A stretch of 64,000 nucleotides of DNA. Source: Tetragonia tetragonoides. Lineage: Eukaryota > Streptophyta > Magnoliopsida > Caryophyllales > Aizoaceae. Numbering within the stretch: position 1 is the stretch's first letter; each line of letters begins with the position of its first letter. Of the stretch, positions 14,813-46,311 are shown in pieces. Location of the stretch: contig CM076154.1 in NCBI GenBank assembly GCA_038025085.1, positions 19,478,501 through 19,542,500 of the forward strand. The letters run 5' to 3'. The notes beneath the pieces were generated by a model. The model was not told where the DNA came from. It did no database searches and saw only the letters and a program-made list of their open reading frames with translations. The translations under genes and the position numbers were made by a program.

Positions 14813-14816
14813 TAAC

Positions 14817-17800
14817 ATGGATCCTTATCCTTACTATGGATTCTCTGAACCATACACGATCAACGGAATCCTAATGCCACGTTTTGAAGCATTTCAAAAC
14901 TGTTTCCTCATGAATGAAGACACACCCATACCTCCCAATGAGGACCAATTCACTAAAGATTGGGCTAATGACATGGCACCCAATGACTTTGGGCTTTTAT
15001 TTGGCGAAGAACGTCGTCAGTACGACGAGACCACTAACAAACTTCCCCTTACTGTGCTTTTTAATGAAGGTTTCGACTCGGCCAAGCTGATCGCCCCAAT
15101 TAGGCCCGACCGCACCACCTGGAAGCACAAGACAAGTTGGACTCGGTCAAGGGAGCCAAGTACAAGTTCACCATCCGCAACGGTCCTACAGGAGGGCCCA
15201 ATTCCGATTCCGAGTCTGATTCTGAGTCTGTTATCCTAGAAGTGTCGGGTAGTCCACCCCAGTCTATTCCTAAGGTCCTTAATGATGACCTCATTGATGT
15301 ATTGTCCGCTTCTATTAATGTTATGAACATCGATTTTGCTTACTCGGATTGCCTCACTGCTAATAATTCAAAAAATATAACGGAATTGCCAAAAGAAGTT
15401 ATTAAAGCACTAATCGAACATGAGCAAAAGACTTCAATAGTCGAAGAAACGGAGACAATAAACATTGCAACTAATATTCAGCCTCGCCACATGCAAATAG
15501 GCTTGTCTTTAACATCTAATGAACGCGAACAATTCGTAACACTCCCAAAGGATTATACGGATGTTTTCGCCTGGTCCTACAAGGACATGCCAAGCATAGA
15601 CCGCAAAATTGCTTAGCATACCATTCTGCTAAACCCCGACTGCAAACCAGTCAAACAAAAGCTAAGAAGAATGAAGCCAAAATGGGCTCTTAAGATCAAG
15701 GAGGAAGTCCAAAAACAACTAGAGGCAGTCTTTATAAGAGTGGCCAATTACCCCGATTGGGTAGCCAACATTGTGCCAGTCCCAAAAAAGGACGGACGGG
15801 TCCGAATGTGTGTAGATTTTAGGGACCTGAACAAAGCAAGTCCAAAAGACGACTTTTCCTTACCTCACATAGACGTCTTGGTAGACAACACCGCCGGACA
15901 CGCCCTTCTATCATTCATGGACGGGTACGCAGGATATAACCAAGTCTTGATAGCCAAAGAGGACGAAGAGAAAACCACTTTCATCACACAGTGGGGCACT
16001 TATTGCTATACAGTAATGCCGTTCGGGCTCAAGAATGCGGGAGCCACATACCAAAGAACCGCTACGACCTTACTCCATGATATGATGCATAAAGAGGCTG
16101 AAGTGTACGTAGATGACATGATCATAAAGTCCAAAGACAGAGAAGGGCATGTACCCTCACTTCAAAAGTTCTTGGACAGGCTTAGGAAGTACAATATGAG
16201 GCTCAATCCCAAGAAGTGCGCATTCGGAGTTACATCTGGAAAACTTCTAGGATTTGTCATAAGCACCAGATGGATAGAAATCGATGCATCCAAGATCAAA
16301 GCCATAATAGACATGCCACCTCCGAAAACGGAAAAAGAAATAAAAGGCTTCCTAGGAAGAATCCAGTACATTAGCAGGTTCATCTCTAAGCTAACTATCA
16401 CTTGTGAGCCCATATTCAAGAAACTCAAAAAAGAGGTAAAAACGGAATGGGACGAGCAATGCCAAAAGGCATTTGACAAAATTAAAGCCTATTTATCTGA
16501 ACCACCCGTTCTAGTACCGCCCATCCCAGGCATGCCTCTAATCCTCTACCTTACGGTCACAGAAACGTCAATGGGGCCCATGCAATCCCAAGAGCTAGAT
16601 AAGGAAGAAAAAGCAATATACTATGTAAGCAAGAAATTTCTGGAATATGAAACTCGCTACTCATCCCTGGAAAAGACATGTCTAGCTCTGGTAGCGACTA
16701 CCAAAAAGCTATGACACTACATGCTCCAATACACGATCCACATCAAATCAAGAGAAACCCCTTTGAAATACATATTCGAAAAGCCCATACTAAATGGTAG
16801 AATAGCAAGGTGGACCGTTCTCCTCTCAGAGTTCGACCTCAAGTTTGAACATCAAAAAGCCATAAAAGGGCATGCTATTTCGGAATACTTGACCGACCAA
16901 GCCATAAATGAACTAGATAACAAGGATGAATATCACTTCCCAGACGAAGGGGTCATGACCTTAGACACCGAAACTTGGCAGCTATACTTCGACGGAGCAT
17001 CCAACCAAAAGGGTTTTGGAGTAGGAATACTGATAGTATCCCCCGAAGGTGCACATACACCCATTTCAATCAAACTGGACCATGAGGTTACAAATAATGG
17101 CGCCGAATATGAAGCCTGCATAATAGGACTGCAATCTGCCATAAGCCTTGGCATTAAGACACTCCGAGTCTATGGGGACTCGTCACTCATAATTAACCAA
17201 ATTTCCAAAGTATGGAAGGTTAAAAGTGAATCCCTAGCACTCTACCAGGAATACTTAGACAAGATCATAGTGTATTTCAATCGAATACACTTTACATACC
17301 TTCCGAGAGAAGATAATCAATTTGCAGACGCCTTGGCTAAGTTAGCAAGCATGATTAACATACCCGAAACCATTCGAATGATGCCCATCTGCGTACAAAG
17401 GAGATCCGAGCCTTTATATTGTGACGCCCTGGAAGTGTTCCACGATGAGGAAGATGAGTGGTACACCGATATAAAAAATCTACTTGTTTACCAGCTCTAC
17501 CCTCCTGATTCTAGCCCAAGAGTCCAGAAAGCACTCAGAAGGCTCGCGGCAGAATTCTTGGAAGTACAGGGTGAAATATACAAGAAAGCCCAAACGGAGT
17601 CAACCTCCGCTGTCTAGGTACCAAAACGGCCCATAAGGTCTTGAGAGAAGTACATGCATGAGTATGTGGACCGCACATGAACGACATGATGCTATCTAGG
17701 AAGATAATAAGGCTTTGATATTATTGGACAACGATGGAAAAAGACTGTTGTGAGTTTGTCAAAAGATGCGTACAATGCCAGATCCATGCAAATCTACAAC

Positions 17801-18693
17801 ATCTGCCACCAAGCCCATTATATACCTTCACCTTACCTTGGCCTTTCTCAGCTTGGGGGATCGATATCATCGGTAAAATAACCCCAACAGGAAAAGGGGG
17901 CCACAAATATATCCTAGTCGCAATCGACTACTTTACCAAATGGGTCGAGGCGCAATCATACGCAAAGCTCAAAGCAAAGCACGTGGTAAACTTCATTAAA
18001 AATAACATAATAGCTAGATATGGAGTTCCCCAAGAAATCATCAGTGATATGGGGTCACACTTCATGAAAGAAGGGATTGAGCTGCTGGACTAATTTAAAA
18101 TCCAACATCGAAAATCATCTCCCTATAGACTGCAAACAAACAGTGCAGTAGAGGCGGCTAACAAGAACATCAAGAAAATCATTGAAAGAATGTCCGAAAA
18201 TTATCATGGCTGGCCAGACAAGCGCACTTTGGGGTTATAGGACATCGGTCGCGCATCAACGGGAGCAACACCATACTCCCTGGTTTACGGAATGAAAGCC
18301 GTATTACCAATCGAACTAGAGATCCCATCTCTAAGGATCGTCTTAGAAAGTCAAATCCAAGAAGTGGATTGGGTCCAAGCCCGCTATGACCAATTAGTCC
18401 TGCTGGATGAGAAAAGGTTACAAGCTCTGCACAATGTAAGAGTCTATCAAAAAAGACTAACTAGGCAGTTTAACCAAAGGCTCAAAATGAGGGACCTTAA
18501 GGTTGGAGACTTAGTACTTAAAGAAGTAAGAGCCAATGTCACTGACCCAAGAGGCAAATTCCGACCCAACTGGTCGGGCCCGTTTATCTTCACAAAAATC
18601 CTAACAGGTGGCACTGCAAGATTGGCAGATTTAGACGGGATCGAATTTAGTCAATGGATAAACATGGATCAATTAAAGAGGTTCTACGCTTAG
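14817..18693 (+). pseudogene. Broken pol of element A (protease tail, RT, RNase H, integrase)
   Basis: Reverse transcriptase lies at 15671-16714 with YVDD at about 16105-16119. An RNase H region with LYFDGAS starts near 16982 and has the archaeal-type look (GDSSLI, EYEACIIGL). Integrase shows HHCC traces near 17760, WGIDIIGK near 17860 and a C-terminal part at 18292-18693. Lesions: a frame change at about 15137-15239; stops at 15614-15616 (Gln to TAG), 16712-16714 (Arg to TGA) and 17615-17617; stops in the integrase N-terminus; the integrase DNG motif changed to DMG near 18050; and a frameshift around 18230. In an active element this polyprotein would be processed into enzymes for reverse transcription and integration. 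Here it is decayed. Confidence 0.88.
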
Positions 18694-19128
18694 GCAAGAC
18701 ACCCAATATAGCACTTTCGAGAGGCCCATACAAGGCTAACTAATCTCCTAAAAAAAAAAAAAAAGAAAATCGGATTGAATGTTAAAAAAAAAATGGATAA
18801 GAACTACGAGTGGCCTGATTCCCCTAAAAGGATACGTAGGAAAACCCAATTGCAATTGGGCCCGGCCCCTTCATCAAATTCGCATTCAAAAGTTGTTAAA
18901 ATTTGTGCACATAATAAACACAAGGTTGGAAAATTAAAATGAGCATGTCTCCATAAATAAATAATAATAATGTCCATTACAAGACTTGGCAATTCCTAAG
19001 CAATAAAATAAATTAACTAAAAAACAAAAGAAGAGAGGGGCACATCACCCTTATTGAATTTAAAGCATAAAAAAAAAGAGAAGGCAATCCTAAGCTAGAC
19101 ATGCTCCAAAAGAGTATATCCTAATAGA
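18694..19128. other. Spacer between pol and the antisense gene, element A
   Basis: No ORF of note. It contains an A run and the segment GGATACGTAGG, also found inverted in element B near 30570. The two genes on either side converge here (pol plus, DUF7745-like minus). Confidence 0.5.
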
Positions 19129-20671
19129 CTACTCCGTAGCTTTGGTAGTAGGGACAACATCCTCCATAGGTTCATCAACCTTTGGGCCTTCCACTTCGCG
19201 TTCCTTGGGAGCCCATCTCTCTCGGACCACGGGCTCTTCTTCTTTTTCAACCTCCATTAGAGGATCACTTGTAGAGGCTTCATGATCATTGGCCCGAATT
19301 TGGGGCTCCTCCTCTGGCTTAGTAGTAATCTTGGCTAAATCTTTCTTGGCCTTTGGGTTAAGAACACTTTTCACATACTTGATTCCCTTTTGTTTACCCT
19401 TCCCTTTAGGATCATTGGGGTTAGAAAGCCTTAAGCTAGCCTTGACCGATTGGGCCTTAATATCATCTTGTTCGGATTTCCTGCATGCACGACGACCTTT
19501 CGCAGTCTTACAATCCATCCAAGCTTCATAAGCTGAAGATATCGTCGTTGGGGCCTTGATATGAGGAATAGTCCACTTAGGGCGACGATCCCATGCACAC
19601 TCCCATGATCTCACCATACTAATGGTCAAAACCCGGGTTAAAGGCGCAACACTATCCTTCTGGGGGATAATCTGGCGTTTCCCATATTGCCGCATGATAC
19701 AGCTAGGATATATATAAGTCAAATTTTGAAGGTCAAGGATTTGATAATATCCCGTCTCTTTGCTGCATCCGATTGCGGATTTTAAGCCCCACCACTTGAC
19801 AGTCCATCTTAGCAAAGGGCAAGCTTTAAGGTATCCACGCCATTCATCAATGGTGGATTCATAATAGAGCCTTCGACGGGCAGGAAACTGCTTTGGTTGG
19901 TACTTGAGCGCATTAGCCGGCCTCTCAATGAAGCGCATATGCTCCAAAAGCCATATCTACAAAAAAACACAAGCAAAAAAAATAATGTTAGGTATCCATT
20001 AAAGATTCAAACTTTATATCCAAAGCAATTATTCAAGCACTCACTTGAAGGAGAAGAGGGCTTCCCGTCCATCCACCATGGGTTGGTTCTTACTTCTTGC
20101 GATCCAAGCACATTAGGGTTTCACCAATAACAATAGACATAGGGGTAAAATCTTTTTGAATTTGTTCAACAATTCTAAGCATACAAGTTTTACCATCATT
20201 ACCTCCACCAACAAAGAGGTACCTATGTAAGATACATAAGATAAAAGCACGCCTATAATATGTCTCATTATGATCATCCCTTACCTTGGGGAAAAAGATA
20301 TCAATCACACCATTGAGGTCTAACTCACCGGTTCTAGCCACAGAAGAGGCTTGTGTTGCAGATACACCAAGATATCTTTTATAATAACCTTCAAGGTTGG
20401 CCCAGAGCCATGGAGTCGCAGGAGCTTGATCATGAGGGAACCCAATTATGGCAGCAAATTCTTCAGGGAGAGGGCACAATTCGTTATACCCGAACCTAAA
20501 AACATGAAGCTTGTCATCCCCAAATTCAACCGCAGCCTCAAGAAGGTTCCAGACAACTTGAACTTGCTTAAGATGGAAGAAAGCAGTCAAGTGAAAGGGC
20601 ACAAGTCTCATCCTCTCTTCAGGGGGCATAGATTGCAACCACTTATCGAACTTAACTTCAAAACTTGTCAT
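19129..20671 (-). pseudogene. DUF7745-like extra gene of element A, antisense, two exons
   Basis: Exon 1 is 20671-20045 (209 codons) and exon 2 is 19956-19129 (275 codons plus stop). They join in phase 0 over an 88-bp intron with GTGAGT and TTTTTTGTAG. Exon 1 starts MTSFEVKFDKW and carries the motif VFRFGYNELCPLPEEFAAI, which resembles the plant domain called DUF7745. Exon 2 contains a Trp-rich block (WTVKWWGLKSAIG, RSWECAWDRRPKW) and a Lys-rich then acidic tail (KGKGKQKG), suggesting a nuclear or nucleic-acid-associated protein. One in-frame TAA at 20090-20092 breaks exon 1; otherwise the 484-residue frame is open. Such domains occur in plant retroelement ORFs and their function is unknown. 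A retained intron shows the gene was not carried as processed RNA in its own sense. Confidence 0.7.
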
Positions 20672-20785
20672 GGCTGAATTCTAAATTAATTGGAGGTTTC
20701 TCTCTCTAAAAAAAACTCTCCATTGCTATGGAATTATGAGGGTGATGTTCCAAAATCGGATTAACCCAAGGCTTATATAGGGCTC
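20672..20785 (-). promoter_or_regulatory. Promoter of the antisense DUF7745-like gene, element A
   Basis: On the minus strand a TATA box (CTATATAAGC) lies at about 20771-20780, roughly 105 bp before the ATG at 20671, with a leader that includes GAGAGAGAAACCTCC. In element B the corresponding site reads CTAAATAAGC near 28623, a weakened TATA. Confidence 0.55.
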
Positions 20786-20813
20786 GCACGAAAAAAGGAC
20801 GAAAATAAGGCAA

Positions 20814-20925
20814 CCCGTCGAAAAATAAGCCTCAGCGGCCCATTGGGGGCCCCACTTTTGACCCACGCTCCTTCGTGTCAGCCGCTGAGCACCCTCCTTT
20901 GGCCGCCGAGCCTCTTTTTCGAGAC
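20814..20925 (-). promoter_or_regulatory. GC-rich GCCGCTGA module upstream of the DUF7745-like gene (A)
   Basis: The module contains CAGCGGCCC, CAGCCGCTGAGC and GGCCGCCGAGCC. On the minus strand the end nearest the gene reads GCCGCTGA, then a T-rich spacer and GACGGG. The same arrangement occurs at 28565-28590 and in the LTR at 25512-25537. It lies about 35-145 bp upstream of the TATA box. Confidence 0.5.
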
Positions 20926-21355
20926 AACACTCTTCTACCCGGTTTTGGACACTTTCCTTAACTGTTTTGGACTCCGATTTGGCTCAATTTCCTATTTCTT
21001 CTATTATTGCTATTTCCTATTATTTCCTTAATTATTTATGGGAACTCCACAATTTCTTTATTTCCTTTTTGGATGATGATCATCTTTTATTTTGTTAACC
21101 CTTTTTATACTTATTATTTTTATTTCATTTACGGCACCCCTTTCTTTTTTCATTTTTTTAAGGGGGGATAAGGTACACCCAATTATAACTTTTTTGGATG
21201 TACCATTTTTTGCTACATAGCTATTACTTGCGCTTTTGCTTGACTACCTGTGCATTTGCATTAGCCTAATTATATGCAGGGACCAATAAGAACAGCAATA
21301 AATTACAAAGCAAAGTTTGAATATTTTGTTCAACACAAATGTTCAAAAATGTATT

Positions 21356-24037
21356 TCATACAAATGCATTGTCATAAAAATCATCACCCGCATCAGCATC
21401 TGAACGGAGCACCTCAAAATGATCCTCCGACCTCCGAGGCTCATAACCAAAGATCGACGCCGCCAGCTGGCCAGGGTCAAAGGAAGAATGACAGGCAGAC
21501 TCCCGATACGAGCACCCTCTCCAGCATAACTCGAATCATACCCCCACGAAGAACGAGGAGGCATGGTAGGCATCATAGGAGCAGGGACAAGGGGTTGATA
21601 GTAAAGGCCACCATAAGGAGCATACCCCGCATACCCGGGATAAGAAGGATACATCGGTATATGCATAGGAGTAGGCTCCACAAACGGAGCCATCCTACTC
21701 CCACCAGGACGGTCCGTCTGATGCACTGGCTCCCTCTCTCTCCGAGGGCTCTCCCTCCGAGGACTCCTCTCACGGGAATACCACCGACAATACCACCTGT
21801 CGTGACCGACGAGGAAGGGGTCGACGATACTCAACCTGCAACCCATCAAACATATAAGATACATTTCTCAAAGCATACAACTTTGAAGATGCAAAGTCTA
21901 GCTCACCTTATCCAAGTCATCCCTCGAGCAGGTGCCCTTCAAGAGAGCTCGAGAAATCCAGGACTTCATAGCATGCATCATCTTGAAGACCTTCCCGGTC
22001 TGCTCACGGTCAAGCTGCGCAAAGAAAAGTCAATACAAGAATAAAAGCAGTAAAAATCACACGCAACAGGTAAAATTACGAATTTACCCCTGGATGCCCA
22101 ACTGGAAGAGGAAGGCCCTGTATGTCCTCATCAAGGTCCTCCGTCATTGGGACCTCTCCCCAATACTCCTTCCCGCCATAGTCCCGACCTCGGACCCGCA
22201 TATCCGGGACATCCACGTCGACATCGTCAACCCGAGGCTCCTGCAAAGTAAAGTAAGTCAGCAAATCAACAAAGCAAGAAAGGCATAGAATAACAAAAAA
22301 TTCTTACCTTCAAACCCACAAATAAAGGCATGAGGCGATCACGACGGAACTGCTCGTAGTGCCCCGCAAGGTCCTCCGCAGGCTTCCTCAAATACCGCAT
22401 AGCATCCGAGCCCACCATGGCCTCCGCAACCTGCTCGCGAGACAAGCACCTCACCAAGAACATGGTCGAGGGAGGATCCAAGGGAATCCTTGGGCCAGCC
22501 ACATCAGGATAAACCTGACGGAAGATCCGCTCTCCTAAATACCACTCGAAAGAGAATGGACCCGCGATTAGGATCCTCTGGCGGTCTATCGCCCTAGACG
22601 CAAGGAGAACATCCGGAGCCAACCCGTGGTACTTCGCCCATGGGAACTAGTCAATCTACACAAACATACAACATAAGATATTTCCACACCAAGAAATACA
22701 ATCCATGCAACAAAAAGAAAAATTGCGCTACCTTATGCCAATCTAGGCGCAGGAGAGCCTCCCTATACTGCTGGAGGGTCGAAAAGGGCGCAGGACCCCT
22801 ATGACGCCACGCCCTGCAAACCGGAAAATCCAACTCCCAGCCCGTAGGCGCCATGTACGGGAAATGCTCGAAAAATCAAGGCTACATCGAAACGTGAAAT
22901 TAAGCACCATACACTTAAAACATGCAAGTCATCAAATGGATACAAAAAGCAAAACGCACCTGCAAGGCCTTCTAGAAACCGCATAAGCTCGCGAGAGGAA
23001 GAGTCGTCTGCTTGTATCCCTCATCATTCACGCGGCAAGCAAACCGCATGCACCTCAAGAGGTTGGCGTAGCCCGGCAACTCCCAGTTGTACTCTCTCAC
23101 CCTCTCCCAGTCCAACAAGCTAGAGAGGTAAATAGCATGAATACGCTCTCCCTTGCTCCACCGAGGTAGTTCTCTTGTACCTCGCATCAGTCAAAGCGGC
23201 ATAGAGCTCGCTATAGGGACGATAACGGTGACCCCAGGTATTCCCCCAAGGGCCAAACAACTCCACCATCTCAGTCTTACGTTTCCAGATGGAAACGTCA
23301 TACACAATGGGCGTACCCACGCAACGGACCCCATTCAGCATAGCAAACTCCGAAGGAGTGATCATCATCTCCCCATTAGGGAAGTGGAACGTGCTGGTGT
23401 TATCCCAAAAACGTTCCAAAGACAAGCGGACAATGCACCTCTTGACTCGCTCAACCGAGTCCGCCGCTTTCAAAAGGGATCCAAACCCCGCACCCAAAAC
23501 CGCGCTTTGCACCTCTTTGGGCAAAGTCTTAAAAAGTCTCACCGAGGAACCATAATTACCATGGGGCTTCAAATTCCCATCGGGTTCCTATAATCAAATT
23601 TGCAACCTCTTAGGTTCACATTTCAACCAAATGTTCAAATCCTAAGCGTGTTTCTAAGCTCGTTCAAGCCGCGCAAGATCACATGAGCTACAAACTTGAC
23701 AATTGCATACAATTCCTACACATTTCTACTCAAAGCAAAGCATATAAACTAAAATTCAATGCATAAAACTATGAATTCAAAGTTTGAGGCTTAGCACAAA
23801 CTTGGAAGCACGGGAGCTCAAGTGAGTCCCCGGTCGAAAGAGCAACTCCGACCAATCCGAAACGATGTCGGGCATCCTATCCGACCGTGTGTACCTATAT
23901 TGAGCAAAAGCCACATTAGGCTTCCTCTTGGAAGGATTGACATGGGATGGAAAAGCTTTGGTGAAGATGTTAATTTCTTCAACCTCCTCCCGGACCTCGG
24001 CCCTTCTACTCCTCTTCTTCGCCAATTTGGGAGCCAT
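21356..24037 (-). pseudogene. Plant mobile domain (PMD) extra gene of element A, antisense, about seven exons
   Basis: The ATG is at 24037 (start MAPKLAKKRSRR, a basic nuclear-type N-terminus). Exon 2 starts at 23587 behind TTATAG and contains the PMD hallmark STFHFPNGEMMITPSEFAML. Later exons carry EHFPYMAPTGWELD and SFEWYLGERIFRQVYP, then a segment with SREQVAEAM. Clear later exons are 22240-22088 (153 nt), 22014-21907 (108 nt) and 21835 onward, with GT-AG junctions identical in position to those in element B. The last exon codes for an RS-rich run (ERSPRRESPRRE) and a Pro/Gly/Tyr low-complexity tail. A frameshift near 23165 and a deletion at the start of exon 7 break it. PMD proteins (MAIN/MAIL family) act in nuclear silencing in plants, and PMDs also occur in transposons. 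A role in silencing control is inference. Confidence 0.72.
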
Positions 24038-24344
24038 GAAGAAGGATGAACAAGCAAGCAAAGATCAACAAGCAATGATGGAGAAATTGAGATTTTCTCT
24101 CTCCAAGGGTTTCAAAAACCCACTCACAAATTCACCCCAAATTTGTGAGAAATCACAAATAAACTTGAAATTATGCAAAGATTATGCAAAACCAAGCAAA
24201 TGCAAGCAAAAAGCAAATTTGAGCAAATTTCAGCAAGAAATGAGGATTTGGGCAACAATGGAGGTAGAGAGAGAGAGTCTCGAACTTTTGGGGAAGAAAT
24301 GACCCAAAAACTCGGCTCCCCCATAAAAATACCCGTTTTGCGCC

Positions 24345-24515
24345 TCTGAACCGGCCCGGCGGCCAGGTTCAGGGCTGCCCAGGCTCCGCGACTGAGCCGC
24401 CCGGCCTAGCGGCCCCTTGTTTAGCCTCCGCCCGGCCATTTCAGCCGCCGAGCGAGCCCGTAAAGGCCGCCCAGCGCTCCGCGGCCGTCCGCATGGCCGC
24501 CCAACCGTTTTTTGT
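24345..24515 (-). promoter_or_regulatory. GC-rich module upstream of the PMD gene (A)
   Basis: Many copies of GGCCGCC, AGCGGCC and GCCGCCGAGC lie between a weak TATA-like ATTTTTATGG (minus strand, about 24321-24330) and the LTR side. The composition matches the modules at 20814-20925 and 25405-25537. This is the longest of the GC-rich islands in element A. Confidence 0.45.
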
Positions 24516-25096
24516 GTTTGCCCCCTCGGGGTGGGCCCACGAGTTCAAATTCCGCGCGGAATTGCATTTCTCGACCGTTGGAAGCCCGGGAAATTCGAAT
24601 ATGTTACCCAAAATGACTCTTTTGCCCCCACAGCTTGGTTTCTTATTCTAGGGACCCGTAACTATCTATTTTTGGAAGCGCGAGCCTTATATCTAACTTT
24701 TTACAGGCACATGCACTTTATTATATGTTTTGCTGGCATAATTTTTCTAGACAACTGAAGCAGAGCAACATACCGCTCTTTGGCAACGAAGCTATCAAAA
24801 TTAGTGTCACGTTGACAATAATTAAAGCAGGGCAACACAACGCCCTTTTGACGATGAGGCTATCAAAATTAGCGCCACGTCAGGATCTGCAAAGCAGAGC
24901 AACATACCGCTCTTTAAAACAAAGCAGAGCAACGCACCGCTCTTTAAGCAAAGAAGGTAACCCTGACCACAGGCGGTCAGGAGCCTATCTTTTATTCTTT
25001 CTAACATAAAGCATTTTCAAAAAAAAAAACATTGCAGGAATTTTTAGCAAATACTTTGACCTTCGCTTTTACAAGCTCGGCCAAAGTGGGGGCTTC

Positions 25097-26593
25097 TATA
25101 GACACCCTAATTGGTTCTCATCTCCTGACACCGCAACGCCCGACGATAATGGTAATGGATTAACATGGACGTAAGTAGAAAAGAACATTTCTCGGAAATC
25201 TAGACCAAATTCCTTAAAACCTCAGTCTTTGGATAGCCCTTGTTATAAGGATTCTAGCTCCTTTGACCTTTGCCTCAATCAGGTTCCTGGATCAAGAGAC
25301 ATCGCGTCTCGAAGACTTGGGTCAAAACCGCTCAATCCCGGCCCCTTGGGCCTGCCCAAGGGAAATTTCGTAATTTACAGAGCACAAAAAGTCAAAAACC
25401 CTAGTCACGCGCGCGCCGTCAGGCCCGGTGGCCTTCGCAGGCTGCTCAGCGGCCAGCGCGTGACAGCGGGGGCCATTGAGCCAGCCGCTGGCCCCAGCTG
25501 CCCTCCGTGTGGCCGCTGAACTGGTTTTTTGACTGGGCCGAGTTTTGGCGCCAGGCTTCTTGTCGTAGGCCCCTAAATCCGTCCCCCAACTCTATAAATA
25601 CTCCTTTTCACCCTCTTTTGCAAGGGGTCAGCCAATTCACAATTTTGAGAGCATTGAGAGCACATATTTTCCCAAATTCAGAAATCTGAAGATTCAAGCA
25701 AGCAATACACCTAGCCTAGCACCCAAGATCGAAGAGCAATCCCAATTCTACTAGTCCCGTTGGAATAGAATGTCCAGGTTAACCATCCTGAGGGCCTAAT
25801 TCTTCATTAAATCTCTTTTTTTATTGTTTATTAATCATGTTTTATTTAGCTTTTGATTATGGTTGAATAAATTTGCATGCTTTTGATTTTGTATATAATT
25901 ATGCATGATTAGTTAGTATAAAGTTTGTGTCTTTTTATTAGTTTATGCAAGTTTGCATCTTTTCATAGTTTTTGCATGCATCTAGTAGCCTCATAGGTTT
26001 ATCTTAGCATAAAGTTAGCACCTTTACAATAATATTATCATTCCTTTTGAAGATACTAACAGTTTTATTGATGTGCATATGCAATACATGGCGCGTTTAG
26101 CAAGTTCGTAGGTTGGAGCGTTAATTAATGCTTTATATCATGTTTATGCTTGTTAATAGTATGCATGTAAATTAGATATAAATCGTGCAAAGTGACAACG
26201 TAGGTAATTTGGTTGATCTTAACCCGCCTAGTTAATTTAGGATCATTGGACGACCGGATTTGTATGGAACCATATAGCATAAATAAATACTTGACATGGA
26301 TAAGCTTAGTAGAGGCCGTTAATACGGGCGATTTAGATGAGATTCATTTTGTTTATTTTGTACCTACATGCCCCAACTCAATACTTAGTACCCACGTGCA
26401 TGAGTCAATTCCCAATAGGAATTGGGGTGCACTTTTGATGGTTTCCAATTGTTTCCTTAAAAATTGGTGGTGGCTTCTTATTTGCAAATTATTGTTCTTT
26501 ATAATTAATTTGAAACGCATGTGACACATATTTAAGAACCATTAATCTCAACTAAAAATCGAAAACGCGCCGGGAAAGGCGAGGGTTCTTACA
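25097..26593 (+). repeat. 3' LTR of element A, 1497 bp
   Basis: The LTR is preceded by the polypurine tract CCAAAGTGGGGGCTTC and ends in GGGTTCTTACA. It matches the B LTR (38294-39103, opposite strand) at both ends. The first dinucleotide is TA instead of TG (TATAGACACC versus TGTAGACACT in B). It holds a GC-rich module at 25405-25537, a TATA box at 25591-25600, and an AT-rich R/U5-like region that B's LTR lacks. Its last base directly abuts element B. Confidence 0.88.
25405..25600 (+). promoter_or_regulatory. LTR promoter of element A: GC-rich module plus TATA box
   Basis: The module contains CAGCGGCC, CAGCCGCTGGCC and GGCCGCTGAACTGG, followed by TTTTTTGACTGGG. TCTATAAATA lies at 25591-25600, about 55 bp beyond the module. 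Spacing and motif order parallel the modules upstream of the antisense genes. Confidence 0.6.
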
Positions 26594-28379: not shown

Positions 28380-28590
28380 TAGCCCGGCGGCCAAAGGGAG
28401 TCGTCCAGCGGCACACGCGAAGGTGCGGGGGCGAAAATAGGGGCCGCCAGGCTCAGTGGCTGTGCCGCTGGGGCTTGGCGGCCTGTCGCTGAAACTCCGC
28501 GGCTGGGCCGCTGGGCCTGGGCTGCACTATCGGGGTCGCCGAGCCTTCGACGGCTGTCCCAGGGGCCGCTGAAGCCCTTTTTTTGACGGG
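28380..28590 (+). promoter_or_regulatory. GC-rich GCCGCTG module upstream of the DUF7745-like gene (B)
   Basis: More than ten AGCGGC/GCCGCTG-type cores lie here, ending in GCCGCTGAAGCCC, TTTTTTT and GACGGG. A weakened TATA (CTAAATAAGCC) follows near 28623 and the ATG is at 28731. The final part is strikingly like 25512-25537 in the LTR of element A. Confidence 0.5.
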
Positions 28591-28730
28591 TTGCCTTATT
28601 TTTTCGTGTTTTCCGTGCGAGCCCTAAATAAGCCTTGGGTTAGTCCGGTTTTGGGACATCACCTTCATATTTTACTAGCAATAGAGATCTTTTAGAGAGA
28701 GAAACCTCCCCATTAATTTAGTTTTCAGCC

Positions 28731-30280
28731 ATGACAAGCTTTGATGCTAAATTTGACAATTGGTTACAATCCATGACCCCCGAAGAAAGGATGAGACTTG
28801 TGCCTTTCCACTTGAATGCTCTCTTCCACTTGAAGCAAGTTCAAATCATTTGGAACCTTTTTGAGGCTGCCGTTGAATTTTGGGATGACAAACTCCATGT
28901 CTTTCGATTTGGGTACAATGAATTATGCCCTCTTCCCGAAGAATTTGCTGCTATCCTTGGGTTTTCTCATGATCAAGCTCCCGCTACTCCATGGCTTGGG
29001 GCAAACCTTGAAGGCTATTATAAAAGGTATCTTTGCCTATTCTCAACACAAGCCTTATCCGTTGCTAGGAGCGGTGAGGTAGACCTCAATGGTGAGATTG
29101 ATATCTTTTTCCCCAAGGTAAGGGATAACCACGATGAGACTTATTATAAACGTGCCTTTATCTTATGTCTCTTGCATAGGTACCTCTTTGTTGGTGTGGT
29201 AATAATGGTAAAACTTGTATGCTTAGAATTGTGGAACAAATTCAAAACGATTTACCCCTATGTCTCTTGTTCTTGGTGAAACATTAATTTGCTTGGACCG
29301 CAAGAAACAAGAGCCGTCGCCTGGCAGATGGACGGGAAGCCCTCTTATCCTTCAAGTGAGTGCTTGAATAAATTGCTTTGAATAATTTAATAAAGTTTGA
29401 ATCTTTAATGGATATCTAACTTTATGTTTTTGCCTTGTTTTTTTTTTTTTTGTAGATATGGCTCCTGGAATACATGTGCTTCATTGAGAGGCCTGCTAAT
29501 GCGCTCAAATATCAACCAAAGCAATTTCCTGCTCGCTGAAGGTTTTATTATGAACCAACCATTGATGAATGGCGCGGGTACCTTAAAGCTTGCCCTTTGC
29601 TAAGATGGAATGTCAAGTGGTGGGGCCTAAAATCCGCAATCGGATGCAGCAAGGAAACGGGATATTATCAAATCCTTGGCCTTCAAAACTTGACTTACAT
29701 ATTTCCTAGCCGTATCATGCGGCAATATGGAAAACGCCAAATTATCCCACAAAAGGATAGTATTGCTCCTGCTACACGGGCTTTAACAATTAGCATGGTG
29801 CGATCATGGGAGTGTGCGTGGGATCGTCGCCCCAAGTGGACTATTCCTCACATCAAGGCTCCTACGCCCATATCTTCGGCCTACGAAGCTTGGATGGACT
29901 GTAAGACTGCGGAGGGTCGCCGTGCATGCAAGAAATCCGAACAAGGCGATCTCAAGGCCCAATCGGACAAAGCTAGCTTAAGACTTTCAAACTCCAATGA
30001 TCCTAAAGGGAAGGGTAAGCAAAAGGAAGTCAAGCATGTGAGAAGTGTCCTCAACCCGAAGGCCAAGAAAGCTTTGGAAAAGATTACTACCAAGCCGCAA
30101 GCAGAGCCCTAGATTCGGGCCAATGATCACGAGGCCTCCTCGAGCATGCCTCTAATGGAGGTTGAAGAAAGAGAGCCTTTGGTTCGAGAGAGATGGGCTC
30201 CCAAGGAACGCGAAGTGGAAGGCCGAAAGGTAGATGAGCCCATGGAGGATGTAGTCCCTACCACCGAAGCTACGAAGTAG
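28731..30280 (+). pseudogene. DUF7745-like extra gene of element B, two exons
   Basis: Exon 1 is 28731-29355 and exon 2 is 29456-30280, separated by a 100-bp intron with GTGAGT and TTTTTTGTAG at the same place as in A. The frame starts MTSFDAKFDNW and carries VFRFGYNELCPLPEEF. A net 2-nt loss near 29195-29215 shifts exon 1. Exon 2 has TGA at about 29537-29539 (Arg in A) and TAG at about 30110-30112 (Gln in A). The C-terminal Lys-rich and acidic tail is otherwise conserved. The two copies carry different lesions, so the ancestor was probably intact at transposition. Confidence 0.7.
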
Positions 30281-30712
30281 TCTATTAAGGAAATACTCTT
30301 TTGGAGCATGTCTACCTTAGGATTGCCTTTTATTTGCTTTTAATTCAATAAGGGTGATGTGCCCCTTCTTTAGATTTAGTTTAATTTTTGTCTTAATATT
30401 TGGGAATTGCCAAGTCTTTGTAATGGACTTTAATATTATTTATGGAGACATGCTTATTTTATTTAATATTGCAACTTGGTGTTTATTATATGCACACCTT
30501 TTTTTTAACAACTTTTGAACGCGAAAATGATGAAGGGGTCGGGGTCAATTGCAATTGGGTTGTCCTACGTATCCTTTTAGGGGAATCAGGCCGCTCGTAG
30601 TTCTTATCCGTTTTTTTTAACATTAAATCCCGTTTTATTTATTTATTTATTTATTTTTCGAATTATGCAGCCTAGTATGGGCCTATCGGAAGTGCTATAT
30701 TGGGTGTCTTGC

Positions 30713-33700
30713 CTAAGCATAGAACCTCTTTAATTGATCCATGTTTATCCATTGACTAAACTCAATCCCGTCAAAATCTGCCAATCTCGCTGCTCCACCC
30801 GTTAGGATCTTGGTAGTGAGGAACGGGCCCGACCAGTTGGGCTTGAATGTGCCTCTTGGGTCAGTGACATTGGCCCTTACCTCTTTAAGTGCTAAATCCC
30901 CAACTTTGAGGTCTCTCATTTTGAGCTTTTGGTTAAAATGCTTTGTTAATCTCTTTTGATAGATTCTTACATTGTGCAAAGCCTGTAACCTTTTCTCATC
31001 TAGCAAGACTAATTGGTCATAGCGGGCTTGGACCCAATCCACTTCTGGAATTTGACCTTCCAAAATGATCCGTAGAGATGGGACCTCTAGCTCAATTGGC
31101 AATACGGCTTCCATTCCGTAGACCAAAGAGTATGGTGTTGCTCCTGTTGATGCGCGGACCGACGTTCTGTAACCCCATAGTGCGAATGGCAATTTGTCAG
31201 GCCAAGCATGATAATTCTCGGACATTCTTTCAATGATTTTCTTGATGTTTTTGTTAGCTTCCTCTACTGCGCCGTTCGTTTGCGGTTTGTAGGGAGACGA
31301 CTTTTGGTGCTGGATCTTAAACTGGGTTAAGAGCTCAATTACTTCTTTCATGAAGTGTGACCCATTATCACTGATGATTTCTTGGGGAACTCCATATCTA
31401 GCTATTATGTTATTCTTGATGAACTTAACCACATGCTTTGCCTTGAGCTTCGCGTATGATTGTGCCTCGACCCACTTGGTGAAGTAGTCGATTACGACTA
31501 GGATATATTCATGACCGACAGGAAACCTCCTTTTCCTTTCGGGGTTATCTTGCCAATGAGGTCTATTCCCCAAGTAGAGAAAGGCCAAGGTGAGGTGAAG
31601 GTAAATAGCGGGCTTGGTGGTAAGTGTTGTAGATTTGCATGTGTCTGACATTGTATGCACCTTTTGACAAATTCACAACAATCTTTTTCCATTGTTGTCC
31701 AATAATACCCGAGCCTTATTATTTTCCTGGATAGCATCATACCGTTCATGTGCAGTCCACAAACTCTTCCGTGTACATCTCGTAAGACCTTATGAGCCAT
31801 TTCGGTGCCTACGCATAGGAGGTTAATCCCGTTTGGGCTTTTCTTGTATATCTGGCCTTGTACCTCTATGAATTGGGCTGCGAGCCTTTTGAGTGCCTTT
31901 TGGGCTCTAGGACTAGAATCAGGAGGATAAAGCTGATCGACGAGTAGATTCTTTATATCGGTGTACCACTCGTCTTCTTTGCACGCAGATGGGCATCATC
32001 CGAATGGTTTCGGGGATATTGATCATGCTTGCTAGCTTGGCCAAGGCATCTGCGAATTGATTATCTTCTCTTGGGAGATATGTAAAATGTATTTGGTTGA
32101 AATACACTAGGATCTTGTCCAAGTAATCCTGGTAGAGTGCCAAGGATTCACTTTTGACTTTCCATACTTTAGAAATTTGGTTAATTATGAGTGACGAGTC
32201 CCCATAGACTCGAAGCGTCTTAATGCCGAGGCTTATAGTGGATTGCAATCCTATTACGCAAGCTTCGTATTCTGCGCCATTGTTGGTGACTTTGTGGTCT
32301 AATTTGACTGAAATAGGTGTATGTGCACCGTTGGGGGATACTATTAGTACTCCTACTCCAAAACCTACCCCTTCGTCTGGAAAGTGGTATTCATCTTTGT
32401 GATCAAGTTCGTGTATAGCCTGGTCGGCTAAGTACTCCGAGATGGCATGCCCTTTTATGGCTTTTTGGTGTTCAAATTTGAGGTCGAATTCTGACAGGAG
32501 GACGGTACATCTGGCTATTCTACCATTGCGTATGGGCTTTTCAAATATGTACTTTAGAGGATTTTCTCTCGATCTTATGTGGATCGTATACTAGAGCATG
32601 TAATGTCGCAACTTTTTAGTTGTCGCGACCAAGGCTAGGCACGTTTTTTCTAAAGGTGAATAGCGGGTTTCGTATTCTAGAAACTTCTTGCTTACATAGT
32701 AGATGATCTTTTCTTCCTTGCCTACTTCTTGGGCTAGCATGGCCCCCATTGACGTCTCTGTGACTGTAAGGTAAAGGATTAGAGGCATGCCTGGAGTGGG
32801 CGGTACCAGAACGGGTGGTTCGGATAAATAGGCCTTAATTTTGTCAAAAGCTTTTTGGCATTGTTCATCCCATTCTGTATTTACCTCTTTTTTAAGTTTC
32901 TTGAATATGGGCTCGCAAGTCATAGTCAACTTAGAAATGAACTTGCTAATGTATTGGATCCTCCATAAAAAGTCTTTTATTTCCTTTTCTGTTTTTGGTG
33001 CTGGCATGTCTATTATGGCTTTGATCTTGGATGAATCAATCACGATTCCTCTAGTACTTATGACAAATCCTAGAAGTTTGCCGGATGTAACTCCGAATGC
33101 GCACTTTTGGGGATTAAGTCTCATGTTGTACTTCCTAAGCCTGTCGAAGAACTTTCGAAGTGAGGGTATATGACCTTCCCTATCTTTAGACTTTATGATC
33201 ATGTCATCTACATAAACTTCAGCCTCTTTATGCATCATATCGTGGAGCAGGGTTGTCGCAGTTCTTTGGTATGTGGCCCCTGCATTCTTAAGCCCGAATG
33301 GGAATACTGTGTAGCAATAAGTCCCCCATTGCGTGATGAAAGTGGTTTTCTCTTCATCCTCTTTGGCCATCAGGACCTGATTATATCCTACGTACCCGTC
33401 CATGAATCATAAGAGGGCGTGTCCAGCAGTATTGTCCCCCAGAACATCTATATGGGGTAGTGGAAAGTCATCTTTTGGGCTTGCTTTGGTCAAGTCCCTG
33501 AAATCTACACACATGCGCACCCGTCCGTCCTTTTTTGGGACTGGGACGATGTTGGCTACCCAATCGGGGTAATTGGCCACTCTTATGAAGCCTGCATCTA
33601 ACTGTTTTTGGACCTCCTCTTTGATCTTAAGAGCCCACTCTGGTTTCATTCTTCTTAACTTCTGCTTGACTGGTTTGCAGTCGGGTTTTAGCGGGATGGT

Positions 33701-36700
33701 GTGCTGGGCAATGTTGCGGTCTATGCCGGGCATGTCCTTGTAGGACCAGGCGAAAACATCCGTATAATTCTTTAGGAGTGTTATGAATTGTTCGCGTTCA
33801 TTAGAGGTTAAAGACAAGCCTATTTGCACGTGGTGAGGCTCGTCATTGGTTGCAATATTTATTGTCTCTGTTTCTTCGACTATTGAAGTCTTTTGTTCAT
33901 GTTCGATTAATGCTTTAATGACTTCTTTTGGAAATTCCACTATATCTTCTTCATTATTAGCAACGAGGCAATCCGAGTAAGCAAAATCGACACTCATAAT
34001 ATTAATAGAAGCGGACAATACATCAATGAGGTCATCACTAAGGACCTTAGTAACAGCAGGAACAGACTGGGGTGGACTACCCGACACTTCTAGGATAAGG
34101 GACTCAGAATCAGACTCGGACTCTGAATCGGAACTGGGCTTCTTTGCAGGACCGTTGCGAATCGTGAACTTTTACTTGGCTCTTTCGACTGGAGTCCACT
34201 TCGTCTTGTGCTTCCAGGTGGTGCGGTCGGGCCCGATTGGGGCGATCAGCTTTGATGGGTCGAAACCTTCATTAAAAAGAACAGTAAGGGGAAGTTTGTT
34301 TGTTTGTTGCCTCATCGTATTGGCGACGCTCTTCACCAAATAGTAGCCGAAGTCGTTTGGTGCCATGTCATTAGCCCAATCTTTATTGGATCGGTCCTCA
34401 TTAGGAGGTATGGGTGTGTCTTCACTCATGGTGAAGCAGTCTTGAAATGCCTCAAAGCCTGGAACTAGGACTCCATTGTTTGCATATGGTTCAGGGAATC
34501 CGTAGTAAGGACATGGGTGGCCTTCTTGAATAACTGCCCATTAAGGGTGAGGGGATAAGGATCCATGCTGTGCGGGATAAGCCTGTTGGCTGCGCGGGCT
34601 CTTTTTCTATCCATTTCCTTTGATATGTAAGCTCGGATTTCTTGCCTTGTGGGCTTGTAGCCTAGCCCAAATAGATCGTTTTTGACCTTGGTATTCCAGC
34701 AGGTTTGGGCTATCTTGGGGTGAGGGCCCAGAGTGGTGCCTGAAAAGTGACCTTGCTTTCTGAGTAGAGCATTTACATTAAGTGTGGGCTCTATTGTTTC
34801 TATGAAGGCTATTTTCTCGAAGCCCCATAATTCTTCGTCTTGTTCATTATGCTCTATCTTTAGGACTGGAGCTTTTTCTATCTGGGCCATCATGGTATCA
34901 GCGCAGACTTCCAGTGTGGATCCTGCCAAGGACAGCTTTACCTTTTGAGGCAGGGTTGAAGCTACAGCATTTAGCTCATGCAACCAAGGCCTTCCTAAGA
35001 GTAGGTTGAAAGGTGGCTGGTATATCGATTACGTGGAACTGGACCATTTTCTCGATCGGCCCAATATTGATGTTCATGGAAAATGTTCCCAAGACGTTTC
35101 TTTTGGAATTACCGTAAGCTCTTAGCCCTTGTGCAGAATGCGCGAGATTGTTACAATCTATTTTGAGGTGTTCAGTGGTCCTCAAAGGGCAGACATTTAC
35201 AGCTGAGCCATTGTCGACGAAAGTCATAGGGACTCGTCTTTGATGATAGATTACGGTCAGATAAAGGGCTTTGTTGTGATGGATACCTTCAGGTGGAAGG
35301 TCTTTGTCAGAAAAGGTGACGGGCGTGGATGACTTTCCTTGGACCAGGAGGTTAACTACCTCTTCAGGAGTGGCGTTTGGAGAAATAGTGGTTGCATTCA
35401 GGGCTTCTAACACGACCTTTCTATGAGTGATAGAAGTGGTCAACAATTGCCAGATGGATATGTCGGCTTTTGTCCTTTGCAACTGTTTGAGAATGTTGGT
35501 CCCATCATCTTTTTTAGCCATTTCTCTTTGGGCTGGATCCCTATTGGGGATTGTTACTGGCTCTATGGGTTGGATTTGAGATGGGTCCATATAGATATTT
35601 TCGAACCTGAATTGGCGTCCTGACCTTGTGAAGTAGTTTAGAGCTTTGTCATCCTCCTCTTTCTCGTCATCGGAGATATCATACTAGGATTTGCCGTTTT
35701 CTATGTCATGGACTTGCGGGATCAACACGTCTTCTGGATCAGTATAAGATCCATTATCTTCTTCGTCACTGCCCAAAGGCCGCAAATGTCTAGCGTGGAC
35801 CTTGGGCTTGGGTATGGTGGTATGGCCTGTCCAACAGGAGTGATCAGGTAGGATGGGTCAAACCCTTCTTCTGTGTCAATGTGAAAAGAGTTCCCGAGGG
35901 GATTATTGTTGTTACTGGGCGGCGGTGCGTCTTTAGGCAATGGTATGGTACCATTATCGAACAGATCCTGAATTTTCTCCTTGAGGGTGTAACACTTTTC
36001 AATATCGTGCCCACGACCCCTATGGTATTTGCAGAATGCAGACTCGTTCCAGTATGGCGACCTTTTCTCTATATGTGGATTGGGAGTAGGCCCAATCGGG
36101 TGTAGATAGTCTCCTTTGACTAGTTTGTCTAGGGCCTTGACATAAGGCATCCCGAGGGGAGTAAACCTTCTTGGACGTCTATCAGGAATGGTGTTCACTT
36201 CATTTCCTCTACTTGTGGAGCCATGATTGGTATTGGTGTATTTCTTATCCTTGTAACCACTTGTATTGTAGTCGTAAGTGACCTTCGTTCTTTCCTCTTT
36301 GGAGTTGGTCGTCTTCAATGGCCATGCCTACTTCAGTTAGTTGGGGATAAGTGGTTATGGGCTGAAACTTCATGTGTTCACGGTATTCAAATGCCAAGTT
36401 CTGGACCAGCATTCTAATTTGATCCCTTTCAGATGGGCGATCAATCATTTCAGCAACCTTAATTCTCCATCTTCTCACGAAATTGGTGAACCCCTCTTTA
36501 TCACCGTGCTTGGTGATGTCCAACTCTCTTAATGTCATGGGAGGTAAGACATTGTCAGCATATCTCTCGAGGAACAAGGTGGATAAATCTTCCCATTTTT
36601 GCAACTTTTGGGTGGGCAATTTGAAGAACCAGGTCCTGACAGCAGGATCCAAAGTTTGGGGAAAGAGGTGAACATACAGCTCTTGTTCAATGCCTCTAAG

Positions 36701-37283
36701 GCCCAATGCAGTAGTGAAAGCTCTAATGTGATCTTGTGGATCGTCGGTTCCTTCAAAAGGTGGGAATTTCAGGCATGGAAAACTTAGTGGGCAATTTTCC
36801 CTTGATGTGGGGAGCATAGCCTTCAGAATTGATGATCATGTCGTTGAAGACACGACTTTTGCCTAGTACAGATTCAAGCCTGTTCAGTTTAGCTTGAAGT
36901 TCTTGAACCTCTTTAGTGGAGGGCTCAGTCTTTTCCTCGTTGGGCTTGGGCTCATCCTCATCCCTAGTAGGGGGATCCAACTTGGCGACACGGGCTTCCA
37001 TATCAGTAAATCTAGCATTCATGGCGACCATTTGGGCTAAAAGGTCATCCATCTTTTGGTCAGCGGTTTTCTCAGCGTCTCCAGACATAGAGGGCTTAGG
37101 TGAACTAGGTGGTGAGGCTTGAGGTGACAATGGCGGTGTGCGAAGGTAGTCGAGCAAAATGGGGCCTACGAACTGTGCTTGTGGTGAAGGTTCGAATGAC
37201 AATTTGCGGACCAGTCTCTTGCTGGACTCGTCCCTCTCCCACTTCCTAGGACCAGTATCTTTACTCCTACCAATTCTGGACAT
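30713..37283 (-). pseudogene. Broken gag-pol of element B
   Basis: Gag starts at 37283 (MSRIGRSKD) and shifts frame near 36800 into the retrotransposon gag core (LRGIEQELYVHLFP, TLDPAVRTWFFKL). A CX2HX4HX4C knuckle (CKYHRGRGHDIEKC) lies near 36000. Protease carries FVDNGSAVN near 35210. RT spans about 34087-32591 with YVDD near 33205 and a TGA replacing Ser near 33405. The RNase H region follows to 31919, and integrase runs 31800-30713 with WGIDLIGK and ISDNGSHF. The catalytic motifs are mostly retained but at least five frame breaks are present. It is the better-preserved copy and provides the gag and protease missing from A. Confidence 0.88.
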
Positions 37284-38293
37284 AAAAAAGGCTCACTTAA
37301 GAAAATAGGAAGTAAATGGAAAACTCCACAGAATAAAGATTTTATTTTAAAACAAACGTGGGAAGGGAATCTAGCACTATTCCTCAACATGGTGATCCTT
37401 GGGAACGATGCGATTTTATGTAAATAGCATATTCTAGTCAATGATCTTTCGACTTCATTAGAATAAAAATGTACTCTTGACTTGCATATGGGATAAAATT
37501 CCCTAATATAAGAAAAGAAGATATACTATTGACTTGCATATGGAATAAAGTAAGACACTTTTTTTTTTTGAAAGATCATTGACGGGATATATTATTGACA
37601 CGCAATCTAATTCATATGGAAAGGAACGTCTTCCTAGTATGGTCACTACTGTCATAGGAGTCATGCATGGATTCTACTTCCTAAAAAGAAAAGATCCTAG
37701 ACTCTATTGGTAAACTTGACAAAACACACAAGTAAACAAAAGAGAAACCTTCCCTAACCAGGACTCAATAAAAAATCCTATGGGGGGATCTAATCCTAAT
37801 ATTCTATGAAAACTAATCACATAGCAAGGAAACAATCAATAATAATATGGCAAGTAAATCAATTAGCACCTTGATATGGACTATGGGACTAATGCAATAT
37901 TTTGACACAATCTATGGTTGGATAAGGTAACCCACATCCGGATGCGTTTCGTCATCTATGGGATGCATAGTAAAACTAAACGTACCGTTTTACACATCTC
38001 GAATTGGAAACATGTAAATGCCATGTGGTGGAACAGGACTATGTGCTAAGGTAATTCGGACGGAGTGGGTCACCGGCCTAAGTCATAGACAATGTTCCAA
38101 TGGGTAATTCCTGTTTATGGTGTGGTGATGTCGACATCTTGCGATGATAACGCATGCATTATGAATGATATGAATACAAAGCAAAGAAAGTAAACACATG
38201 CGGTAATTGAACCAAATAGCTAAAATAAATTGTTGACATGGATAGGTGTTCGAATTACACCCTCTTGTTAATTATCCCTAGTGAAGTCGCCAC
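37284..38293 (-). other. Leader of element B with primer-binding site
   Basis: Non-coding leader between the 5' LTR and gag. Directly next to the LTR, the minus strand reads TGGCGACTTCACTAGGG (38276-38292), a PBS-like sequence of the Tat/Ogre kind (tRNA-Arg-type is my recollection). The remaining 1 kb has several similar GATCATTGAC segments and no ORF. Confidence 0.6.
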
Positions 38294-39103
38294 TGTAAGA
38301 ACCCTCGCCCTTCTGGCGCCTATCGATATATTTAGTTGGAATTAATGGTTCTTAAATAATACGTCAATAATGCAATTTAAATTAATTATGGGGAATAACG
38401 ATTTACAAACAAAGAAGCCGCCACCAGTTTTTGGGAAACAATTGGAAACCAACAAAAGTGCACCGGAATTGACTCATACCCAAAGGGGGCCAAATATTGA
38501 GTTCGGGGATGTAGGTACGAAATAAACAAAACGAATCTCATCTAAATCGCCCGAATAAACGGCCTCTACTAAGCCTATCCATGTCAAATATTTATTTATA
38601 CTATATGGTTCCATATAAGTCCAGTCGTCCAAGATCCTATATTAACTAGGCAGGTTAAAACCAAACAAATTGTCTGCCCAAAAGAAGCTCAGTGGCATGC
38701 CGCTGGGCCCAGCGGCTGCCCAGAGGGCCCCCGCTGTCACGCGTGTGCCGCTGGGCTGACAGCATCAGCGGCTGGGCCTGGAGGCGCGGGCGTGACTAGG
38801 GTTTTTTGACTTTTTGTGCTCAGTAAATTACGAAATTGCCCTTGGGCTGACCCAGGGGATCGGGATTGAGCGGTTTTGACTCAAATCTTCGAGACGCGAT
38901 ATCTCTTGATCCGGGAACCTGATTGAGGCAAGGTCAAAGGCGTTGGAAACCTTATAACAAGGGCTATCCAAAGACTGAGGTTTCAAGTAATTTGGTCTAG
39001 ATTTCTGAGCAATGTCCTTTTCTACTTACGTCCATGTTAATCCATTGCCATCATCATCGAACGTTGCGGTGCTAGAGGATGAGAACCAATTAGAGTGTCT
39101 ACA
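38294..39103 (-). repeat. 5' LTR of element B, 810 bp, internally deleted
   Basis: In element orientation it runs from TGTAGACACT to GGGTTCTTACA, matching A's LTR at both ends. About 690 bp present in A (the TATA box at 25591 and most downstream sequence to about 26205) are absent. The GC-rich module survives at 38690-38795 (GCCGCTGGGCCCAGCGGC). Without its TATA this LTR should not initiate transcription normally. Confidence 0.85.

Positions 39104-46255: not shown

Positions 46256-46311
<56 letters not shown>

Follow-up and report, generated by a model that had tools for sequence, protein, structure and literature searches.

Two copies of a retrotransposon carry antisense genes

We analysed a 64,000-base stretch of Tetragonia tetragonoides DNA (40% G+C; contig CM076154.1, positions 19,478,501 to 19,542,500), referred to here as the window, which contains two copies of one plant long terminal repeat (LTR) retrotransposon family in opposite orientations. 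Both copies carry, antisense to pol and beyond the integrase, a DUF7745-like gene and a gene for a plant mobile domain (PMD) protein. Element A (14802..26593, forward strand) is a Tat-type Ty3/gypsy copy that is truncated at its 5' end and keeps its 3' LTR, as delimited by blastn blocks to the other copy from 14828, tblastn homology from 14802 and its protein domains. Element B (26594..39103, reverse strand), delimited by self-comparison and by reading the junction, is a related copy that keeps its 5' LTR and lacks its 3' end where A abuts it. Self-comparison with blastn gave three long blocks of 82.5–85.6% identity (14828–22623 against 34511–26594), which cover pol and parts of the antisense genes, and two LTR blocks of 86.1 and 81.4% identity (25099–26595 against 39101–38292).

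Reverse transcriptase (RT), RNase H, additional RNase H and integrase were recognised with Pfam in A and B alike. In A these lie on the forward strand as RT with RNase H (15617..16714; PF00078, PF17919), the end of RNase H with the additional RNase H, RVT_3 (16715..17614; PF13456, 2e-22), and the integrase region (17719..18690; PF00665 in 17719–18090), where the ratio of non-synonymous to synonymous substitution rates (dN/dS) in the sense frame is 0.07 and 0.11. The PF13456 match falls between those to RNase H and rve in both copies (16715–17614 in A, 31922–32590 in B), and an additional RNase H in this place is a mark of the angiosperm Tat elements, including Ogre and Retand (PMC6317226; this and other papers are cited for particular passages). 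A and B are therefore Tat-type, which, together with the identity of the three long blocks, bears out the original prediction of two Tat-lineage elements. No Pfam match to gag or protease domains was obtained in the gag-protease part of B.

The 3' LTR of A measures 1497 nt (25097..26593, forward strand) and the 5' LTR of B 810 nt (38294..39103, reverse strand). TG...CA termini are present in B (39103–38294), and the LTR of A ends with CA and starts with TA. About 700 nt of the A LTR (25501–26206), including its TATA box at 25593, are absent from B, for which a deletion in B that removed the core promoter seems more likely than an insertion in A. Neither copy is LTR-bounded, a 3' LTR being found only in A and a 5' LTR only in B. 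The terminus of the A 3' LTR (...TTACA, 26593) directly abuts exon 3 of the B PMD gene at 26594, which accounts for the missing exons 0–2 of that gene; because the A LTR ends exactly at the start of this exon, the simplest history would be that A inserted, inverted, into the PMD gene of B, and that a later loss took the 3' end of B together with the 5' end of A. Both antisense genes are damaged in both copies by stops or frameshifts, some of them confined to one copy, and A and B are thus decayed, non-intact copies. The earlier proposal that both elements hold the two antisense genes before a 3' LTR was correct as to genes, strand and place; it fails for B in that its PMD gene lacks exons 0–2 and no 3' LTR follows.

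Directly outside the B 5' LTR we observed remnants of a SWIM zinc finger (above cut-off) and of a Mutator-like element (MULE) transposase (22.0 bits, below cut-off) at 39026–40366 on the reverse strand. An open reading frame (ORF) at 39029–39541 continues from this remnant into the LTR, which makes it probable that a MULE was the insertion site of B.

The DUF7745-like gene and its predicted intron

The DUF7745-like gene lies downstream of the integrase in each copy and consists of two exons separated by one predicted intron. In A, on the reverse strand, exon 1 (20045..20671) starts with an ATG at 20671, contains one in-frame stop and matches PF24924 below the cut-off; it is followed by a predicted 88-nt GT-AG intron in phase 0 (19957..20044) and by exon 2 (19129..19956), which encodes a basic KGKGKQKG stretch. 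In B, on the forward strand, exon 1 (28731..29355) is frameshifted, and exon 2 (29456..30280) has two extra stops and a weak PMD match in Pfam (E 0.016). The window proteins score 16.4–19.0 bits against a PF24924 gathering score of 26, which three of five full-length relatives (P0001, P0003 and P0005) pass, hence our label 'DUF7745-like'.

Eighteen protein relatives were found, five in a first search and the same five plus 13 in a second, with 25–37% identity to the window protein. Four of them (P0001–P0004, P0002 being a spinach protein) align uninterrupted across the predicted junction and may represent spliced annotations or intron-less copies, and P0005 has an in-frame insert exactly at the junction. 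A further 11 of the 18 (P0006–P0016, of which P0010, P0011, P0014 and P0015 were read and left out of the alignment) end shortly past the same residue, each with a V next, as expected from translation into an intron starting GTN. The remaining two, P0017 and P0018, shift frame earlier and are uninformative on the intron. The intron position thus recurs in remote relatives, supporting the predicted intron. We found no relatives in viral contigs (queries P0001, the window RT and A1) or in bacterial and archaeal genomes (query A1).

The PMD gene and its kinship with DUF7745

For the PMD gene of A, on the reverse strand, seven exons and six introns are predicted; splice sites were picked by eye, GT-AG pairs being taken where they connected open frames. 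Exon 0 (23798..24037), with a basic start, MAPKLAKKRSRR, is predicted from A alone and has no support from B. Exon 1 (22960..23587) is frameshifted near 23180 and was translated in pieces; alone it matches PF10536 below the cut-off (8.7e-7, 28.9 bits). Exons 2 to 5 follow at 22732..22881 (150 nt), 22308..22655 (348 nt), 22088..22240 (153 nt) and 21907..22014 (108 nt), and exon 6 (21356..21835), whose frame is disturbed, encodes an Arg/Ser-rich and Pro/Tyr-rich tail. With the exons joined and X placed at breaks, the A protein passes the PF10536 gathering score (43.5 against 34.9 bits), even though the gene carries a frameshift and stops. The B gene, on the forward strand, has lost exons 0–2 and retains 316 of the 348 nt of exon 3 (26594..26909), with a stop at the start of this remnant, exon 4 (26980..27132, 153 nt), preceded by an intron-3 acceptor that reads TCG instead of CAG, exon 5 (27206..27313, 108 nt) and exon 6 (27387..27896). 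The 153- and 108-nt exons and the splice junctions agree in A and B, as had been noticed before. A search with the PMD protein returned no relative at E ≤0.001 among 7,996 candidates scored.

On the same residues, two of the DUF7745-like relatives (P0001 and P0003) score above the Pfam cut-offs for DUF7745 (PF24924) and for PMD (PF10536); P0002 passes that of PMD, P0005 that of DUF7745 and P0004 neither. From the overlapping matches in P0001 and P0003 we conclude that the families are homologous, PMD and DUF7745 apparently being divergent branches of a single superfamily. To speak of 'two host-type genes', as the original prediction did, is misleading in this light; moreover, PMD clades A1 and A2 in published trees come exclusively from Gypsy elements (Ikeda et al. 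2017, PMC5418596), so that there is no need to invoke a recent host capture.

Both antisense genes bear the mark of purifying selection

Substitutions between A and B concentrate on the third codon positions of the antisense frames, with 26/8/58 and 25/16/68 changes at positions 1/2/3 in the two DUF7745 exons and 17/8/35 in PMD exons 3–5. In these frames dN/dS is 0.12 and 0.11 for DUF7745 exons 1 and 2 and 0.16 for PMD exons 3–5 (0.15 for the retained part of exon 3, 0.27 over the 51 codons of exon 4 and 0.08 over the 36 codons of exon 5), next to 0.05–0.11 in pol; absolute dS is probably inflated, with this method, by transitions. PMD exon 6 reaches 0.32 in its best frame and is therefore under weaker constraint. 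The mirror-image sense frame has a dN/dS of 1.0, and the remaining control frames give values between 0.25 and 4.05; those with 0.25–0.28 are sense frames that share their third positions with the antisense frames, and in each copy they hold 9–11 stops across the DUF7745 exons and 4–5 across PMD. Chance ORFs were rejected on the dN/dS values and the codon-position pattern in the antisense frames, and these patterns indicate that the antisense genes are real and old.

At four-fold sites A and B differ by 0.32 in RT and by 0.18 in PMD exons 3–5, while the two DUF7745 exons reach 0.33 and 0.31. The non-coding parts (20672–21355, 18691–19128 and the introns of A) differ by 0.08–0.21, below the four-fold sites of RT and DUF7745 (~0.32). 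The low divergence of the non-coding parts and of PMD possibly reflects recombination between lineages.

Predicted promoters and a clustered GCCGCTG motif

A TATA-like box precedes the ATG of both DUF7745-like genes by 106–108 nt, reading TATATAAG (20779) in A and TAAATAAG (28625) in B; the TATA box of the A LTR reads TATAAATA (25593), and a weaker candidate lies upstream of PMD exon 0 at 24331. The suggestion that the antisense genes have their own promoters is plausible, and the internal antisense promoters, like the exon models, are predictions from sequence.

Scanning k-mers in the non-coding regions of the two copies, which were delimited by annotation and total 6,762 bases, we found GCCGCTG to be the top-ranked 7-mer, with 13 copies against 0.98 expected from local dinucleotide shuffles; the whole window has only 14. 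Three copies lie in the promoter region of the A LTR (25400..25600, forward strand) and four in that of the B LTR (38640..38790, reverse strand), which lacks the core promoter found next to them in A. The predicted DUF7745 promoter regions hold two copies in A (20760..20960, reverse strand) and four in B (28340..28640, forward strand), each followed by the TATA-like box described above. The predicted PMD promoter region of A (24300..24580, reverse strand) is GC-rich and contains GCCGC seven times and GCCGCTG not at all. B preserves four of the five GCCGCTG copies of A without change, compared with a fraction of 0.17–0.23 for the average 7-mer there.

The idea that the LTR and antisense promoters are copies of one another was rejected. 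Of the eight cross-pairs of LTR, DUF7745 and PMD promoters, each aligned with both members in the same orientation, just two (LTR_A-DUF_A and DUF_B-PMD_A) beat all 500 shuffles, and narrowly; we therefore claim shared motifs and not homology.

A predicted VANC-like fold and a possible anti-silencing role

In two models of moderate confidence, built from overlapping alignments, the predicted fold of DUF7745-like relatives may match that of VANC21, so that the closest solved fold would be that of an anti-silencing factor. A viral fold library gave no match at E ≤0.001. In plants, anti-silencing by an element's own DNA-binding protein has been described for VANDAL DNA transposons, whose VANC21 and VANC6 bind short motifs repeated in the non-coding parts of their own elements (PMC5735166, PMC10398659). 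We do not class the DUF7745-like protein as a VANC by sequence; our suggestion, by analogy, is that it may work like one. Our best reading, which we put at roughly 45%, is that this Tat-type retrotransposon carries two selected antisense genes, predicted to be split by introns, whose products are VANC-like DNA-binding proteins that lift host silencing at the element's own promoters. The original prediction that the element could be modifying its own silencing gains some support from the modelled match to VANC21.

Under this anti-silencing reading, sense transcription from the 5' LTR would yield a genomic RNA in which the antisense introns read CT...AC and so would not be spliceable, and they would be copied back into DNA with the unspliced RNA. 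That introns persist for this reason, as had been proposed, is supported by logic rather than experiment. Antisense transcription from the predicted internal promoters would give two spliced mRNAs, whose PMD and DUF7745 products may act as a related pair, one or both recognising GCCGC(TG). Back at the LTR and antisense promoters, the proteins would occupy the GC-rich motif clusters, where their binding might relieve DNA methylation, as VANC does for VANDAL transposons. A wider version, which we hold more tentatively, is that Tat-type elements carry a sequence-specific anti-silencing system in the form of an antisense, intron-containing PMD and DUF7745 pair with a VANC fold that acts on GCCGCTG-type clusters at the LTR and antisense promoters; PMD, DUF7745 and VANC would then form one ancient superfamily of DNA-binding silencing regulators in retrotransposons, MULEs and hosts, and antisense coding would keep the introns through reverse transcription.

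Several observations weigh against an anti-silencing role. The two relatives behind the fold match share 37% and 33% identity with the window protein, and helical folds can reach comparable Z scores without kinship, as the tool itself warns. Foldseek against the PDB gave no match at E ≤0.001, with VANC21 not among the 50 matches listed; no PDB chain showed sequence similarity at E up to 10, and no DUF1985 match was found at E up to 10 in 13 relatives. A shared fold, in any case, demonstrates no function. The window PMD protein matches the DUF7745 profile weakly (probability 11%, E 0.0027), over a shared 35-residue motif only. As to the motif, GCCGCTG was first noticed post hoc, the relatedness of A and B (four homologous pairs) makes its 13 copies non-independent, only four of the eight copies in B are present in A (0.15–0.16 expected for the average 7-mer), and it is absent from the PMD promoter region. 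GC-rich promoters or ordinary GCC-box sites could yield similar clusters.

The strongest competitor, which we consider possible if somewhat unlikely, holds that the antisense proteins are accessories of the replication cycle with no silencing role, for example helpers of integration that localise to the nucleus, or ordinary transcription factors, along the lines suggested for Grande gene23 and Retand TRP28. The conserved coding and the basic stretches fit it, a DNA-binding fold with motif clusters at promoters would suit a plain transcriptional activator equally well, and reviews propose retrovirus-like regulatory roles for such proteins (PMC7264820, PMC11963269). It is set back by the closest solved fold, which belongs to an anti-silencing factor, and by the work of PMD relatives in Arabidopsis silencing pathways (PMC5418596).

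The same relatives lend themselves to the opposite direction of effect, in which the proteins promote silencing and the element restricts its own copy number, since the host PMD proteins MAIN and MAIL1 are required for silencing (PMC5418596), a further point against the anti-silencing reading. We regard such self-limitation as improbable: the matching solved structure is that of an anti-silencing protein, and long-term purifying selection on a self-repressor in a replicating element would be harder to explain.

A role for antisense transcription itself, through double-stranded RNA, small interfering RNA or interference with gag-pol and with incidental proteins, has been raised for antisense ORFs (PMC7264820) and is here very unlikely, as antisense-frame dN/dS of 0.11–0.16 and shared splice positions argue that protein, and not RNA alone, is selected. 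Equally slight is the chance that the genes are host genes or a MULE-type DNA transposon captured by nested insertion and foreign to the family: PMD genes, often antisense, do occur in MULEs (PMC6446971) and a MULE/SWIM remnant adjoins the B 5' LTR, but that remnant sits outside the element, the block lies at the same place in both copies, the four-fold divergence of DUF7745 is like that of pol, and no long inverted repeats surround the block (longest arm in 18600–25200, 24 nt at 75%), on which grounds a nested DNA transposon was rejected.

Other features of the window

Further RT and retroviral protease remnants lie at 57306–58259 (forward strand) and 60011–61030 (reverse strand), accompanied by direct repeats of 94–96% identity at 59644–60043 and 61596–61998. 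The window also contains a tandem array with a 342-bp unit (45573–46640) and a leucine-rich repeat gene fragment (2533–3198, reverse strand).

Discussion

PMD genes are known from plant transposable elements. PMD is the commonest of 15 non-canonical domains in Gypsy elements (PMC9289625), and 57% of Ogre elements carry it (Neumann et al. 2019, PMC6317226). PMD-bearing Ogre elements resemble the family described here in their Tat-type pol with its placement of the additional RNase H and in a PMD gene beyond gag-pol. What sets the present PMD gene apart may be that it is antisense, on the 3' side, with six predicted introns and paired with a diverged member of its superfamily; for a Medicago Ogre family, an ORF upstream of gag is described (PMC2533021). 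PMD genes, often antisense, have also been recorded in MULE groups, where a table entry for VANDAL reads 'PMD and/or DUF in half the members' (PMC6446971), so that an association of PMD with VANDAL by sequence annotation is already published, as is the speculation that captured PMDs serve MULE anti-silencing (PMC5418596).

Antisense 3' ORFs occur in Grande, RIRE2 and Retand (PMC7264820, PMC11963269), and Grande gene23 is reported to have its own promoter (PMC7264820), a likeness to the promoters predicted for the antisense genes here; the protein domains of these ORFs differ from PMD and DUF7745. In the main text of these two reviews 'intron' does not appear, the splicing passages concern sense transcripts or future work, and the function of antisense genes, PMD included, is called unknown for large plant retrotransposons. 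Plant LTR elements are described as generally intron-less, with Ogre and EVADE as exceptions (2025 review, PMC12786077). Within a literature search whose scope left most subscription journals outside, we found no description, in the passages covered, of introns in antisense retrotransposon genes, no paper naming DUF7745 and nothing joining 'VANC' with 'plant mobile domain'. What appears to be new here is the pairing of the antisense genes, together with their predicted introns and the modelled VANC-like fold.

The mRNA of HBZ, a gene of human T-cell leukaemia virus 1 (HTLV-1), is spliced, and its protein is unrelated to the antisense proteins here. HBZ is similar in being an antisense retroelement gene for a nuclear regulatory protein (PMC11963269). 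A possible functional parallel is offered by VANC21 and VANC6 of the Arabidopsis VANDAL elements, which are MULEs. The likeness would lie in an element-encoded protein, the VANC21-like fold predicted for DUF7745-like relatives, and a short motif clustered in the element's non-coding regions, for which GCCGCTG is the putative counterpart. Here, however, the carrier is an LTR retrotransposon rather than a DNA transposon, the motif is GCCGCTG and not YAGTATTAY, and no sequence similarity between VANC and the DUF7745-like relatives was detected. MAIN and MAIL1 belong to the same PMD superfamily and differ as host genes that promote silencing (PMC5418596).

The conserved intron suggests a simple route by which a retroelement can carry spliced genes. 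A link in fold between the PMD superfamily and VANC, if it holds, predicts DNA targets and in which direction the proteins act, and raises the possibility of shared ancestry with the host silencing proteins MAIN and MAIL1.

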